Part shown: positions 635 to 17,122 of the stretch, in pieces
Position numbering within the stretch: the first letter of the stretch is position 1
Layout of the letters: every line of letters begins with the position of its first letter
Source: Bacteroidota bacterium
Lineage (GTDB): Bacteria; Bacteroidota; Bacteroidia; 2-12-FULL-35-15
Direction: 5' to 3'
DNA length: 64,000 nt
NCBI GenBank assembly: GCA_025963715.1
Contig: JAOQAG010000027.1
Coordinates: forward strand, 124,001-188,000
Made by a program: the position numbers and the translations under genes
The notes under the pieces: model-generated
Database searches by the model: none
The model's input: the letters and a program-made list of their open reading frames with translations, nothing else
Told to the model about the DNA's origin: nothing

Positions 635-3028
635 ATGGGAAAACAATTCAGAAGTAAAAAGCAGGGACCGAAAAAAAGTTATTTTTTTGAAGAAATACTT
701 AATTTTTTAAGCAAAAACCCGAATAAAACGTTCAATTATAAGCAAATTGCCTCGGAATTAAACATAACAGATCAGTCGCAACGGATCATGATCAACACGA
801 TTTTGGCCGAATTAAAGGCCAATGATTCGGTTACAGAACCGGAACGCGGGAAATTCAAGGTAAAAAACACCGAACAATTCATTTCCGGCAAGGTAGATAT
901 GACCGCCTCGGGCGTTGCTTACATCACTTCCGAAGAAATGGAAGAAGATGTGCTGATCCCTCAGAAAAAAACATTTAATGCCATGCACGGCGACATGGTG
1001 CGTGTGCTCCTCTATCCCAAACGAAAAGGGAAACAGGAAGGCGAAATTGTGGAAATTTTGCAACGTGCCAAAACCGAGTTTGTGGGCACGATCCAGCTGT
1101 CTGCACGTTTTGCATTTTTGGTGCCGAGCAGCAACAAAGCCAATGTGGATATTTACATTCCGCTGGATAAATTAAACGGTGCCAAGGACGGGCAAAAAGC
1201 AATCGCTAAAATTATTGAATGGCCGAAAGGTGGCGTGAATCCTATCGGGGAGATCATTGATGTGCTGGGGAATGTGGGAGAAAACAATACGGAGATGCAT
1301 GCTATTCTTGCTGAATACGGCTTGCCATACGAGTTTCCGAAGGATGTGGAACGTGCTGCCGACCTGATCCCGGTGGAGATCACTGCAGAAGAAATTGCCA
1401 AACGCCGCGATTTCAGGAAGATTACCACGTTTACGATCGATCCGGTGGATGCAAAAGATTTTGATGATGCACTTTCTATTCAGAAATTAAAAAATGGAAA
1501 CTGGGAAATAGGCGTACACATTGCAGATGTGAGCCATTATGTAAAACCGGGCTCAATGATTGACAAGGAAGGAGTTGCACGTGCAACGTCTGTATACCTT
1601 GTGGATAGGGTTGTTCCGATGTTGCCCGAGGTCTTGTCCAACAATGTTTGCTCGCTGCGCCCGCACGAAGAAAAACTGTGTTTCTCCGCTGTGTTTGAAA
1701 TGACGGATGATGCAGAGGTGGTGACCGAATGGTTTGGACGCACGATCATCAACTCCGACCGCCGCTTTACTTATGAAGAAGCCCAACTGGTAATTGAAAC
1801 AGAGGAAGGCGATTTTAAAGACGAGATCCTGACACTGAACCGCCTTGCAAAAATTTTACGTGCCAACCGTTTCAAAAAAGGAAGTATTGCCTTCGAAAAA
1901 ATGGAAGTGAAATTTCATTTGGATGAAGCTGGAAACCCAACCGGCGTTTATTTTAAAGTGGCAAAGGATTCCAATCAGCTGATCGAGGATTTTATGTTGC
2001 TGGCTAACCGGAAAGTGGCAGAATTTGTGGGTAAAACAAAAGAAGATACAGGAAACAAGACACAAGAGCCAAGACAAAAAATACAAGGACAAAACAGGGC
2101 ATTTGTATACCGTGTGCATGATAAGCCCAACCCGGATAAACTGACTGATTTTGCTGAATTTGTTTCTAAATTCGGGTATAAGCTGAACATTAAAAATGAA
2201 AAAGCGGTTGCCGATTCGATGAACAGTTTACTGAAAGAAGTAAGTGAAAAAAAGGAAGCGGGAGTAATTGAATTGCTGGCGATCCGCACGATGGCAAAAG
2301 CGATCTACACGACTAAAAACATCGGGCATTACGGTTTAGGTTTTGATTATTACACCCACTTTACTTCTCCTATCCGCCGTTACCCGGATGTAATGGTACA
2401 CCGCCTGTTGCAGCATTACCTGGATGGTGGAAAAAGTCCGGATGTGGAAACACTGGAAGCACAATGCAAGCATTCATCCGACATGGAAAAACTGGCGGCA
2501 GATGCGGAACGTGCTTCTATTAAATACAAGCAGGTACAATTCTTAAAAGATAAGATCGGGCAGGAATTTGACGGCCGCATTTCGGGTGTTACCGAATGGG
2601 GAATTTTTGTGGAGATCATTGAAAACCATTGTGAGGGAATGATCCGCCAGCGCGACATGACGGATGATAATTATTATTTTGATGAAGATAATTATTGTAT
2701 GCGCGGTAAAAAATACGGCAAGGTGTTAACGCTTGGCGATGAGGTGCGCATTGAAGTAAAACGCGCGGACCTGGTAAAGAAACAACTGGATTTTGCACTG
2801 GTGGAAGTGGCAGATAAACCGGGGAACAAAAATACTGCTGCTGCTAAAAACGTTGCTGCATCCAGATCTCCGAAAGGGAAAAAACAAGAGCCAAAAAAGG
2901 AAGAACCTAAAAATACAGAACCGGATAACCGTCCGCGGAATGAGCGTTTCCAAAAAAAAACAACGGATAAGAAAAAGCCGGGTGAGGAAGGGAAAGCGTT
3001 TAATGATGACTGGGGATTTGAAATTTAA
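635..3028 (+). CDS. rnr: Ribonuclease R (3'-5' exoribonuclease)
   Basis: 797 residues with the RNase II/R plan. There is an N-terminal winged-helix-like segment (about 15-75), cold-shock-like OB folds (about 85-235), and the RNB catalytic domain from about 258, with the Asp-rich metal site IDPVDAKDFDDALS near residue 270. The HYTSPIRRYPD-type signature is present as HFTSPIRRYPDVMVHR near 575. An S1 domain (GRISGVTEWGIFVEI) lies near 648, and a Lys/Glu-rich basic tail covers about 745-797. The enzyme degrades structured RNA, including rRNA and mRNA, in the cytoplasm. Oddity: about 20 residues (467-488, TKEDTGNKTQEPRQ...) sit inside the RNB domain just before the conserved FVYRVHDKPNPDKL segment, and are encoded by a dispersed CAAGA-type repeat. 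The rest of the frame is intact, so the gene is probably functional. The start ATG is the first after the divergent spacer. Confidence 0.96.
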   Translation: MGKQFRSKKQGPKKSYFFEEILNFLSKNPNKTFNYKQIASELNITDQSQRIMINTILAELKANDSVTEPERGKFKVKNTEQFISGKVDMTASGVAYITSEEMEEDVLIPQKKTFNAMHGDMVRVLLYPKRKGKQEGEIVEILQRAKTEFVGTIQLSARFAFLVPSSNKANVDIYIPLDKLNGAKDGQKAIAKIIEWPKGGVNPIGEIIDVLGNVGENNTEMHAILAEYGLPYEFPKDVERAADLIPVEITAEEIAKRRDFRKITTFTIDPVDAKDFDDALSIQKLKNGNWEIGVHIADVSHYVKPGSMIDKEGVARATSVYLVDRVVPMLPEVLSNNVCSLRPHEEKLCFSAVFEMTDDAEVVTEWFGRTIINSDRRFTYEEAQLVIETEEGDFKDEILTLNRLAKILRANRFKKGSIAFEKMEVKFHLDEAGNPTGVYFKVAKDSNQLIEDFMLLANRKVAEFVGKTKEDTGNKTQEPRQKIQGQNRAFVYRVHDKPNPDKLTDFAEFVSKFGYKLNIKNEKAVADSMNSLLKEVSEKKEAGVIELLAIRTMAKAIYTTKNIGHYGLGFDYYTHFTSPIRRYPDVMVHRLLQHYLDGGKSPDVETLEAQCKHSSDMEKLAADAERASIKYKQVQFLKDKIGQEFDGRISGVTEWGIFVEIIENHCEGMIRQRDMTDDNYYFDEDNYCMRGKKYGKVLTLGDEVRIEVKRADLVKKQLDFALVEVADKPGNKNTAAAKNVAASRSPKGKKQEPKKEEPKNTEPDNRPRNERFQKKTTDKKKPGEEGKAFNDDWGFEI
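2035..2100 (+). repeat. CAAGA-family repeat arm inside rnr
   Basis: The stretch around 2050-2078 reads caggaaacaagacacaagag followed by ccaagac. It matches, allowing a few substitutions, the two arms at 15863-15905 and 15969-16004. Here it is in frame within the RNase R catalytic domain and adds a hydrophilic loop. Confidence 0.6.
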
Positions 3029-13928: not shown

Positions 13929-16052
13929 TTATTTGCTCCCACTCGAAAAAGTAGAGATCGCAATGATCTGGATCTTTCGTTCCAGCGCAGCTGCCGGACT
14001 GTATACCGAATTTTTTGTGTCGTAATAATCATCGCTTACATTCGGGCGTGCTTTTAATTCGCCAATGTCCTCATCCATAAACGTAATGCTGCCTTCCAGC
14101 GGATTGGGATTGTTCACATATTTCACAAAAATCCCGTTCTGATACTCCATAAAATAATTCCGAAGGCTGGAGATCCGGCGTTTGGCAAGGTTAATATTAT
14201 AATCGGTAGAGGCCAGCGGGCTGCAAAACCCTTTCATGGTAATGGTTACTTTTTCACTGTCTCTCAGCACTTTTACCAGCAGCTGCGCAAACTTTTCGAG
14301 GTCCTGCATTCCGGCATCCACGCTATCATCAAACAGGTTATCAATATCGCCGACAGCGCGGTCTACATTATCGCCGGTAGCGCCTTTCGAATATTCTTTT
14401 TTATACTGATCGCGCATGGCGGAATAATCCTCGTACGTTTTTTTGTAATTTTTTGTGGTGGTGACCGCCAGTGTTTTTTTATCGGGTTCATCGTTGTGAA
14501 AATACAAGGTAAGCGGTACCAGCAATTTCATTTGTGTGACAAAGATCTTAGTACTGTCAACCTTTACAGGCGGCTCATTGATCCGCGGAATTTTAAATGT
14601 GTAGATGTCGTTGCAGCAGCTTTCTTTTTCCTCAAAATAAGAACCTATGCGGTTGGACGATAAAAACGCCGCTGTTTTTTTTGAGTTGATGCTAAAATAA
14701 ATGTCGTTGTAATTGCTGTTGATAGGGTAACCCAGATTTTTCGGCTCCGAAAATTTACTGTCCTTGTACTCACTTTTAAAAATATCGAAACCGCCCAAAC
14801 CCTTATGCCATGTGGAGCTAAAGAATAATTCCTGGCAGGGTTTGCAGTAAAACGGCGTAATGTCGTCCTCGATGGTATTTACCGCTTTGCCTGCGTTTGT
14901 TGCTTTTCCGAAGGTTCCATCCTTATTTATTTTGCTGTACCAAATGTCCATTTTACCTTCACCTCCGCTTCGGTTGGATGCAAAAAACAATACTTCCTGA
15001 TCGCCCAAAAAGCCGATGGCAGGCTGCGTGTTGGTGCTTCCCTTCTGGTTGATCTCATCCGGCAATAGCTGTAACGCGGTCCAGTGCCCGTTTTTAAAAT
15101 CGGATGTGTAAATTTCACAATTAAATTCCAGCGCGTTCTTTTGTTTGCAGCGCGTGATGTACACTTTCGTGAAATCGTTGTTGAATGCTGTATTTGCATT
15201 GTGAATCCCATTGCGGTTAAAAAGCGTATCCAGCTCCACTGCTTTTTCCCATTTTAATCCTTTTTGTCCGGCCCGTACCGTATCCTGAATGGCGGTGTAA
15301 ATTTTATTGTAGCTGACATTGTTTTTTTTGTCGCGGTCTTTTTTATCCCGCAGCGACGAAAAATACAACAGGCTGTCTACTTCTATTGGCGCGTATTCCG
15401 ACACTTTACTATTCACCGCACTATCAAGGTGGATCATGTTGATCGACTTATCTGGTGTGGCCATCAGCAGCTGTGCATAATCACAGGCGGCGACCTCCTG
15501 GATGGCTTTTTTTACAAAATAACTGTCTTTTTTCTTCTTGTTCTTCTTCGCATATTTATCGAACATTTTTTTTGCATCCTTGTACTTGCCTTTGTTTTTC
15601 TTAATGGTAGCAATCCAAAACGAGCATTCGGGATATAATTTCCCCTGCGAATCTTTTTTAAAAACTTTAGCATACCAATGATCGGCAATATCGTAATCGT
15701 AGTTAAGGCGACTGGCTTCCGCGTAGCGGTACTGGATGGTAATATCGGTTGAATCCTGCAAAATTGCCTGGTTGTAGTAAATCGCCGCGCCAAAAAAATC
15801 ATTGTCGGCAAAAGCTTTATCACCATCGGCGAGGACTTGTTTTAGTTTTTGTGCCTGAAGGGAAGAAGATGCAAGAAGTAGGAAACAAGAGACAAGACAG
15901 ATCGCAATTCGCCGAATGCTTCTGTTTACTGATTTATAGTTGAAAAATGAAATTTCCTGATCCACGCTACATCTTGATTCTTGTGTCTTGATTCCTGATT
16001 CCTCATCAAAAAAAGCAAGATCTATATTATTTCTTTTGCGCATAATTAGCAT
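13929..16052 (-). CDS. OmpA-like PD40 periplasmic protein with repeat-derived N-terminus
   Basis: 707 residues. From about residue 70 it follows the plan of the Bacteroidota PD40-OmpA proteins that accompany PorP/SprF: a TPR-like helical part (ADGDKAFADNDFFGAAIYYNQ), PD40 beta-propeller blades (LLYFSSLRDKKD, VLFFASNRSGGEGKMDIWY, LFFSSTWHKGLGGFDIF, AAFLSSNRIGSYF), and an OmpA-type peptidoglycan-binding end (TMKGFCSPLASTDYNINLAKRR). The family links outer-membrane T9SS parts to the cell wall. The first 70 residues are odd: an extension MLIMRKRNNIDLAFFDEES and then a hydrophobic stretch CLVSCFLLLASSSLQAQ encoded by arms of a dispersed CAAGA repeat. No closer start codon is evident before the signal peptide, so a weaker start near SIRRIAICLV is possible. 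11 bp after porP. Confidence 0.85.
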   Translation of the reverse strand: MLIMRKRNNIDLAFFDEESGIKTQESRCSVDQEISFFNYKSVNRSIRRIAICLVSCFLLLASSSLQAQKLKQVLADGDKAFADNDFFGAAIYYNQAILQDSTDITIQYRYAEASRLNYDYDIADHWYAKVFKKDSQGKLYPECSFWIATIKKNKGKYKDAKKMFDKYAKKNKKKKDSYFVKKAIQEVAACDYAQLLMATPDKSINMIHLDSAVNSKVSEYAPIEVDSLLYFSSLRDKKDRDKKNNVSYNKIYTAIQDTVRAGQKGLKWEKAVELDTLFNRNGIHNANTAFNNDFTKVYITRCKQKNALEFNCEIYTSDFKNGHWTALQLLPDEINQKGSTNTQPAIGFLGDQEVLFFASNRSGGEGKMDIWYSKINKDGTFGKATNAGKAVNTIEDDITPFYCKPCQELFFSSTWHKGLGGFDIFKSEYKDSKFSEPKNLGYPINSNYNDIYFSINSKKTAAFLSSNRIGSYFEEKESCCNDIYTFKIPRINEPPVKVDSTKIFVTQMKLLVPLTLYFHNDEPDKKTLAVTTTKNYKKTYEDYSAMRDQYKKEYSKGATGDNVDRAVGDIDNLFDDSVDAGMQDLEKFAQLLVKVLRDSEKVTITMKGFCSPLASTDYNINLAKRRISSLRNYFMEYQNGIFVKYVNNPNPLEGSITFMDEDIGELKARPNVSDDYYDTKNSVYSPAAALERKIQIIAISTFSSGSK
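15863..16004. repeat. CAAGA-family inverted-repeat element within the OmpA-like gene
   Basis: Left arm 15863-15905 (gatgcaagaagtaggaaaca then agagacaagac); right arm 15969-16004 (acatcttgattcttgtgtct then tgattcctgattcc). As reverse complements they share aggaA/TcaagaC/Gacaaga. The RNase R insertion at 2050-2078 has the same core. The element lies at the 5' end of a coding sequence and stays in frame. Confidence 0.6.
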
Positions 16053-16063
16053 TTACCAGCATC

Positions 16064-17122
16064 CTACATGTATATTGGACAAACACGTTTTTTCGCAATA
16101 AACGGTACTGTTTTTTTGAAAATATAAATAATGGAGATCTCGAAACCGCCTCTGCGATTGGTTGCTGCAATAAGTTTCGATGTGTTAACATCATAACTCA
16201 AACCAACATTAAAGTTCCGGTAATCTACATTTGCCGACATGATGAAAGCATCTTTCAAACGGTAATATGCGCCGAGGGAAAGAGCGGTTTCTATTCCGTT
16301 TACCGGTTTTAAATAATACTTGCCGGAAGCGCCCAAAATGGTTTCATGAAACTTGCCTTGTCCTTCGTACATGAATGTTGGCAATACATCCAGCTTTTCA
16401 GAAACCGGAAATTCTCCCAAGCCGCTTACTACAAATTTGCGATCAAGGGTAATATCGTCGTTGTTAAAAAACGATTGTTTGGGTGCATTTAAATGGAATG
16501 CAGAAACACCGAAGTTTAATTTGGTACGGCTGTTTTTCCGCCATAGATAAGCCAATCCGCCACCCAAATCAAAATAGGTAATGCGCGTTTTACTAAAATT
16601 TTCACCGCTTGCCAGGTTGGGATTAAACTGATCACCGTCGTATTGATTATCAAATGTAAGCGCGTTGATATCAAAACTTTTGGTGGAAATGCCCGGCTGT
16701 AGAGCGATTGACAAAAAGTGCGTGGAATCTTTATTTAGTTTTTTGATGTAACATGCCGAAATAAAAACCTGCGTGGTGGTAAATTTTGAATCGCCCGAAC
16801 GGTCATTGTTCACAATCAAACCAAACGCCGGTACATCGTTTTGTAATTTTGTTTTTAAGCGTGTATCTGCAGCAATGGAAAATGTTTTGTAGGGCACAGG
16901 AATAGCCGACCACTGACTGCGGTAATTTCCGGCAAAGCGCCAATCGCCATTAAATAAGCCTGTTTGGGCCGGATTTAAATTTTGCGTGGTGGCGTTGAAC
17001 TGCGAATAATGAATGTCCTGCGCAACAACTAACGTTGATAAACATAAAAACACAATGCCCGCTCCCACCCTTTTTATAAGGGAAGCAGAAGGATTTATTT
17101 TTTTATGGTTTGTAATTATCAT
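16064..17122 (-). CDS. PorP/SprF-family T9SS outer-membrane protein
   Basis: 352 residues. A signal peptide (GAGIVFLCLSTLVVAQ) is followed directly by the family hallmark DIHYSQFNATTQNLNPAQTG and GDWRFAGNYRSQW. The rest is alternating amphipathic strands as expected of an outer-membrane barrel, ending with an unusual tail IAKKRVCPIYM. PorP/SprF proteins act with a specific C-terminal-domain cargo, classically SprF with the adhesin SprB, to export and attach type B substrates. Here the CHU_C adhesin gene lies just upstream (33 bp), so the pair is probably cargo and partner. The neighbouring PD40-OmpA protein is the usual third member. Confidence 0.93.
   Translation of the reverse strand: MIITNHKKINPSASLIKRVGAGIVFLCLSTLVVAQDIHYSQFNATTQNLNPAQTGLFNGDWRFAGNYRSQWSAIPVPYKTFSIAADTRLKTKLQNDVPAFGLIVNNDRSGDSKFTTTQVFISACYIKKLNKDSTHFLSIALQPGISTKSFDINALTFDNQYDGDQFNPNLASGENFSKTRITYFDLGGGLAYLWRKNSRTKLNFGVSAFHLNAPKQSFFNNDDITLDRKFVVSGLGEFPVSEKLDVLPTFMYEGQGKFHETILGASGKYYLKPVNGIETALSLGAYYRLKDAFIMSANVDYRNFNVGLSYDVNTSKLIAATNRRGGFEISIIYIFKKTVPFIAKKRVCPIYM

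Follow-up and report, generated by a model that had tools for sequence, protein, structure and literature searches.

Rickettsia palindromic elements (RPE) are intergenic repeats that are fused in frame, and the enterobacterial RU elements are also fused in frame, with one Yersinia signal peptide (SP) hypothesised to be partly formed by RU-2 (PMC2229807, PMC2759123). In the Neisseria opa genes, (CTCTT)n coding repeats lie in the leader peptide (PMC3960869). The heptamer TAACTGA has been described as an intergenic direct repeat in Beggiatoaceae, Cyanobacteria and a few Bacteroidetes (PMC4679880). The PorE protein of the P. gingivalis type IX secretion system (T9SS) is called a lipoprotein (PMC7192894). 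Our search of the open-access literature, with subscription papers outside its coverage, found no work on heptad-coded SPs in Bacteroidetes.

The locus analysed here encodes a PorE-like protein with an SP coded by 7-nt repeats (heptads). RPE and RU elements, as described, resemble these heptad arrays in being intergenic repeat DNA read in frame, in one hypothesised case (RU-2) as part of an SP. However, they are defined elements of about 100-170 bp, whereas the arrays here are short, serve several gene families and recur across the genus (PMC2229807, PMC2759123). A conserved body between fixed terminal inverted repeats, as in MITE or RPE-type elements, was not found, and the arms were often single. 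The nearest known case is opa as described in PMC3960869, which shares a short tandem unit that is not a multiple of 3 in the SP region of an outer-membrane protein, and such a unit was found here within the SP coding region. In contrast to opa, the unit here is 7 nt long and degenerate, its words differ among species, and it also occurs in n-regions and in genes for conserved envelope parts (PorE and GldD) (PMC3960869). Near-perfect, slippable units of the opa type were not seen at PorE, where the units are imperfect; about four units are identical in a few other SPs. The TAACTGA repeats and our arrays are both dispersed 7-nt direct repeats, mostly intergenic and some of them by start codons, and units of 7 nt were found here at many intergenic places. 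The arrays here differ from the TAACTGA repeats as described in their words, their strong degeneracy and their sense-coding role in SPs (PMC4679880). The word TAACTGA itself was not what we found just upstream of starts.

The window, which is the whole stretch of DNA analysed (64,000 nt), covers positions 124001-188000 of contig C10 in a draft genome of 4.91 Mb, labelled G000. The features at the locus, in window positions, are as follows.

13929..16052, minus strand: PorE-like open reading frame (ORF), 707 aa, with the heptad-coded SP (NCBIfam profiles and orthologues)
16064..17122, minus strand: PorP/SprF-like gene, directly upstream of the PorE-like ORF (PF11751, 138.8 bits)
16050..16052, minus strand: ATG, the likeliest start, 11 nt past the PorP stop and matching the coupled start of the parsed orthologue loci
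15963..15965, minus strand: alternative in-frame GTG start, which would leave the CAAGA arm untranslated (sequence)
15970..16004, minus strand: CAAGANN-type array of five heptads in opposite sense, which with a start at 16052 codes EESGIKTQESR of the n-region (sequence)
15863..15897, minus strand: TCTTGNN-type array of five heptads, coding the hydrophobic core LVSCFLLLASS (LVSCFLLLASSS) (sequence and lag-7 test)
15849..15854, minus strand: predicted cleavage A67|Q68 (LQA|QK), from the sequence and the orthologue alignment

The 707-aa protein resembles PorE / CHU_0125 and its gene adjoins porP, a feature shared with T9SS PorE; the two genes apparently form one operon. The protein scored 178 bits against NF052230 (T9SS_PorE), short of the curated cut-off of 600 bits, and 193 bits against NF053607, also below its curated cut-off. 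In the profile search the OmpA-like domain PF00691 reached 20.1 bits (cut-off 27.2). We take the layout to be TPR, propeller and OmpA domain, the first two presumably as in PorE. The best match was RYN_274 (86% identity), and the nearest named records were uncultured Bacteroidetes MAGs. The likeness to T9SS PorE consists of NCBIfam family resemblance and PorP adjacency; the SP here ends LQA|Q without a lipobox cysteine, in contrast to the PorE lipoprotein of P. gingivalis (PMC7192894).

The h-region (L53-S64, 15861-15896) coincides with the array at 15863-15897, where TCTTGTC TCTTGTT TCCTACT TCTTGCA TCTTCTT follow one another on the minus strand in perfect 7-nt register. The opposite-sense array at 15970-16004 (GAGGAAT CAGGAAT CAAGACA CAAGAAT CAAGATG) coincides with residues 18-28, ESGIKTQESRC (15969-16001). 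The initial annotation, which had assigned the core to one repeat arm and ESGIKTQESRC to the other, was right on both points. Its 45-residue extension was too short, since 51 residues precede the array-coded core if the start is 16052, and its single inverted-repeat element resolved into two opposite-sense heptad arrays with no single defined element. Lag-7 identity of the 60-nt SP was 0.53; codon-order shuffles gave 0.31 ± 0.06, and none of 2000 reached the observed value. Of the 88 SPs crudely predicted in a sample of 456 kb from G000, it ranked first in lag-7 identity. A general repeat finder did not list the CAAGA/TCTTG arm pair because the arms are imperfect. From sequence, we consider it fairly likely that the TCTTG array supplies the h-region of the PorE-like protein and that the CAAGA array lengthens its n-region. 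The export-type sequence is retained, in agreement with what was first proposed.

Between the stop of PorP and the first residue of the predicted mature protein lay 212 nt in G000 compared with a median of 105 nt (21 parsed loci), so that 67 residues instead of about 34 precede the predicted cleavage. PorE started 1-6 nt past the PorP stop in 17 of the 20 other parsed loci, with leaders mostly of 26-35 residues and no CAAGA arm. The sister genomes G010, G029 and G009 also had long PorE leaders (144, 157 and 160 nt) but of other sequences, which shows that the leader accepts foreign sequence in frame; the CAAGA array is the version of this insert specific to the G000 lineage. The G010 leader carries GTCATTGCGAGCGGAGCGAAGCAATC, a repeat whose dispersal was verified: with one base left free, it occurred at 27 places in 11 of 36 genomes. 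For the repeat in the G029 leader dispersal was unsupported, with just 2 exact copies among the 36 genomes. Other repeat-like sequences (HCERSEAI, GHAERSRS and others) were seen in frame in the PorE leaders of L029, L030, L031, L041 and L050, with dispersal verified for L029 only.

Heptad-coded cores of similar motif were present in the orthologues of G016 (LVSCLLFLGSS), G025 (FVSCFFLFNSS) and G035 (LTSCFLFLASP). Given these counterparts in other clades, the PorE h-region array is probably old and inherited rather than newly inserted in this species, as its sequence suggests. It may also have been re-acquired, because G010 and G029 are without it. The column-majority consensus of seven PorE SPs had a lag-7 identity of 0.66, above the 0.58 of the highest member. 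This would be consistent with a cleaner array that has since decayed, but we give it little weight. The proposal that the repeat had replaced or extended the N-terminus thus held for the leader, extended by a lineage-specific array, but not for the core, which looks inherited.

Heptad repeats were dispersed through the G000 genome. The double unit CAAGANNCAAGA occurred 57 times compared with 3 for the reversed pattern, in agreement with the earlier claim that the SP core is made of repeat DNA of a dispersed kind, and the triple unit CAAGANNCAAGANNCAAGA occurred 20 times compared with 0. In the 456-kb sample, intergenic period-7 arrays numbered 28 compared with 0.4 in shuffles. Period-8 arrays were also in excess in the same sample (14 compared with 1.6), and the other intergenic periods tested there were near chance. 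Many other heptad words, including TTTGAAC and TAATTCA, occurred in G000. The strict triple TCTTG word was found in 42 of 395 genomes of the phylum sample and in 18 of 36 genomes of the genus. We read 63 distinct strict TCTTG arrays (from 64 merged places) in the genus excluding G000, and 18 of these lay in sense within SPs as judged by eye. Outside the genus, 1 of 41 strict arrays (40 stretches among the matches listed) lay in an SP (L362), a significantly smaller share (p = 5e-4). The SP arrays, all in sense and assigned by eye and by orthologue searches, with Pfam run on five of the genes (L129, L130, L162, L148 and L111), and one array outside SPs were:

L108, L115, L161, L174: PorE SP
L112, L138: VWA protein SP
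L113, L145, L154: PorP-like SP
L129, L135, L140: LptE-like SP (Pfam names LptE at L129)
L130, L167: GldD SP (Pfam names GldD at L130)
L111, L123, L148, L162: other SPs (Pfam names Omp28 and a T9SS tail at L162 and a GDSL lipase at L148, and no family at L111)
L114: internal membrane helix coded by a strict array

Orientation was strongly biased in a combined set of 105 arrays of at least two units each: sense arrays in genes started before codon 60 in 20 of 24 cases, compared with 7 of 38 antisense arrays (p = 7e-7). The four sense arrays past codon 60 were L114 and three SP copies of a GldD gene. In G001, G005, G017, G027 and G033, all strict TCTTG arrays found were in an SP or a TM helix, which argues that the arrays grew locally or were selectively retained, and against their having simply been copied from intergenic ones. 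Antisense arrays, which read as hydrophilic peptides, recurred in RNase R-type ORFs, including one in the window:

2049..2074, plus strand: CAAGANN array in the RNase R ORF (635-3028, plus strand), with the hydrophilic reading GNKTQEPRQ at codons 473-480

Long ORFs of G016 (L125), G003 (L127) and G032 (L149) had CAAGA arrays in comparable positions, and these and the RNase R array are probably the same linker.

We measured periodicity in the SPs of PorE, a VWA protein found via its array, and GldD, each parsed at 29 of 30 orthologue loci. GldD was tested after prediction, with arrays already known in three of its genomes (G000, G005 and G015). Lag 7 reached p < 0.05 against codon-order shuffles in 16/29 PorE, 17/29 VWA and 21/29 GldD SPs, counts which are not independent events since the orthologues share ancestry, and which rest on SPs called by simple rules and by eye. 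A rerun of the VWA SPs gave 18 loci instead of 17, because the shuffles are random. Only lag 7 (with 14) stood out in the three genes, and 0-5 loci passed at lags 4, 5, 8, 10 and 11 in VWA and GldD. Among high-confidence background SPs of three genomes, 15 of 214 passed at lag 7 (Fisher 3.6e-23), compared with 32, 17 and 13 of 214 at lags 4, 5 and 8. A general 7-periodicity of SPs was rejected, as lag 7 in random SPs was no higher than these other lags; without a lag-7 excess in the background, the periodicity is a property of particular genes and not of SPs generally. The comparison of orthologue N-termini proposed in the initial annotation gave a divided answer, with the other PorE loci mostly without the CAAGA arm but more than half of the PorE SPs still 7-periodic.

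The lag-7 signal was also present in the n-regions of VWA (11/29) and GldD (16/30), with no enrichment in those of PorE (2/28), and it faded in the mature segments (PorE 1/29, GldD 1/30, VWA 5/29). PorP SPs passed in 2 of the 9 loci that parsed. The PorE relatives outside the genus comprised ten loci, of which two were unparsed, L408 had no proper SP and L410 repeated the sequence of L329; 1 of the 6 distinct SPs was positive (p = 0.001), from the closest outside genome, G058. A close upstream gene was common to PorE, VWA and GldD: the first ATG of GldD overlapped the upstream gene's stop in 24 of 28 loci, and the VWA gene lay 3-97 nt behind its neighbour in the 28 loci with an identifiable upstream gene.

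The words of these SPs differed among species. VWA used TCTTG in G000 and CTTYTGAC-like words in the sisters G010, G019, G029 and G009, and differed also between G033 and G001; the PorE SP of G010 had the word ATCTCAT. The GldD gene of G000 carried three tandem in-frame 60-nt SP copies, (N/R)TLVSCFL-L-SCIS:

L085:878-1963 (G000:C16:26544-27629), minus strand: GldD with three SP copies, each with TCTTG heptads

On balance, we favour the reading that gene junctions gather 7-base arrays and that at PorE, VWA and GldD such arrays became working SPs. Gene junctions in the genus would gather degenerate arrays as units slip or are duplicated locally. As 7 is coprime to 3, a 7-nt repeat passes through all frames in 21 nt, so that a TCTTGNN array would give the same hydrophobic cycle L-V-S-C-F-L-L in every frame, with a charged, hydrophilic complement. 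T/C-rich arrays would give hydrophobic peptides and A-rich arrays basic or polar ones, and duplication of units at a junction could therefore yield n- and h-regions regardless of frame. Arrays in genes would survive where the peptide is tolerated, in sense in SPs and the membrane helix and in antisense in linkers and leaders, and selection would purge them elsewhere in genes. At PorE, VWA and GldD the array DNA would have turned into a working SP, we infer in that direction, and been rewritten over time, so that the words differ among species. A wider version remains tentative and is perhaps somewhat doubtful: heptad DNA as an SP generator, in which the n- and h-regions of the same exported proteins would be rebuilt again and again from 7-mers at operon junctions that read as hydrophobic or lysine-rich in any frame, with repeat turnover (word switching, local duplication, triplication as in GldD) going beyond point mutation alone. 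The results suggest repeat DNA as raw material for new export signals, and bear on the open question of how new SPs arise and why SP sequences diverge fast. In three conserved envelope proteins they tie functional-looking n- and h-regions to a frame-blind DNA process, the mature part of each protein acting as internal control, and they offer a counterpart of the opa leader repeats from an environmental bacterium that is not a pathogen. They also warn annotators that 'repeat' DNA at such starts may be coding.

Other explanations were weighed against the junction-array reading. Translation from the GTG at 15965 would make the CAAGA arm an untranslated leader and leave the TCTTG arm alone coding, with an n-region of 22 residues before the core that is closer to the usual length. 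We regard this start as unlikely, given the starts close behind PorP at 17 of the 20 other parsed loci and a frame that stays open through the longer PorE leaders of G010, G029, G009 and G017. Insertion of one palindromic element of a dispersed kind at the 5' end of porE in this lineage, its two arms supplying both the n-region extension and a new core, would account for the inverted CAAGA...TCTTG arms, for the lengthened PorE leader, and for the same arm order at all three heptad-SP genes of G000 (PorE, VWA and GldD) and at another locus (C33:23485/23670). However, the similar-motif cores occur in orthologues without a CAAGA arm, arm length and spacing are variable, and an inverted upstream arm, seen at 3/3 of these genes in G000, was present at just 2 of 17 scored heptad SPs elsewhere (L112 and L154; 21 listed loci, with L113 at a contig end unscored) and was rejected as a general part. 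Such an insertion is improbable.

The same arm order at VWA and GldD of G000 would also suit an RNA control in which the start region is masked by pairing between the CAAGA array of the leader and the TCTTG array of the SP, and the predicted fold of the 216-nt leader does pair portions of the arms. The folding energy was no better than that of shuffles (z 0.32), so that a special RNA structure of the leader gave no signal and the predicted hairpin is possible but energetically unsupported; with the CAAGA arm absent at most heptad SPs of other genomes, RNA control seems very unlikely. Switching of the opa type, in which the frame would shift and the protein turn off or on whenever one 7-nt unit is gained or lost, has in its favour that, as in Neisseria opa (PMC3960869), the unit length is indivisible by 3 and the unit lies in the SP of surface proteins, and that some SPs (L123, L145, L154 and L167) contain four identical or near-identical units. 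In contrast, the imperfect PorE units should lower slippage, and among eight sense arrays whose downstream frame is long and open but which lack an in-frame ATG upstream, none was recognised as frame-broken, with one genome per species; one of the eight, L140, simply reads from TTG. Since no frame-broken allele was recognised, we treat switching as a rival and not as the main reading, and judge it quite improbable. Chance repeats from T/C-rich codons for L, F, S and C, arising without any history, would draw on the pyrimidine-rich codons of SPs and on the somewhat raised lag 4 in SPs generally. The codon-order shuffles keep composition, yet the three genes stand out at lag 7 (with 14) only, and the 214 other SPs lack the lag-7 excess; this explanation is already disfavoured and hardly credible.

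Among other arrays, none of the 26 strict CTTYTGAC arrays lay in an SP. Of 22 ATCTCAT arrays, 5 (L246, L250, L253, L266 and L268) lay at the start codon, or immediately ahead of it, in genes that look cytoplasmic. CAAGA arrays often followed closely on a stop codon (3-8 nt past it in 10 of 31 intergenic cases), and one lay just past the upstream gene's stop at the GldD locus of G000. G000 also contained another dispersed repeat, GAAGCTTTAGCGCAAGAGTCAAGAGAGGGGG, some 40 nt long, at C2:6674, C3:16667, C3:103754, C20:87719, C42:115094 and C46:11424, and its copy at C3:16667 had one heptad more, a hint of unit gain.
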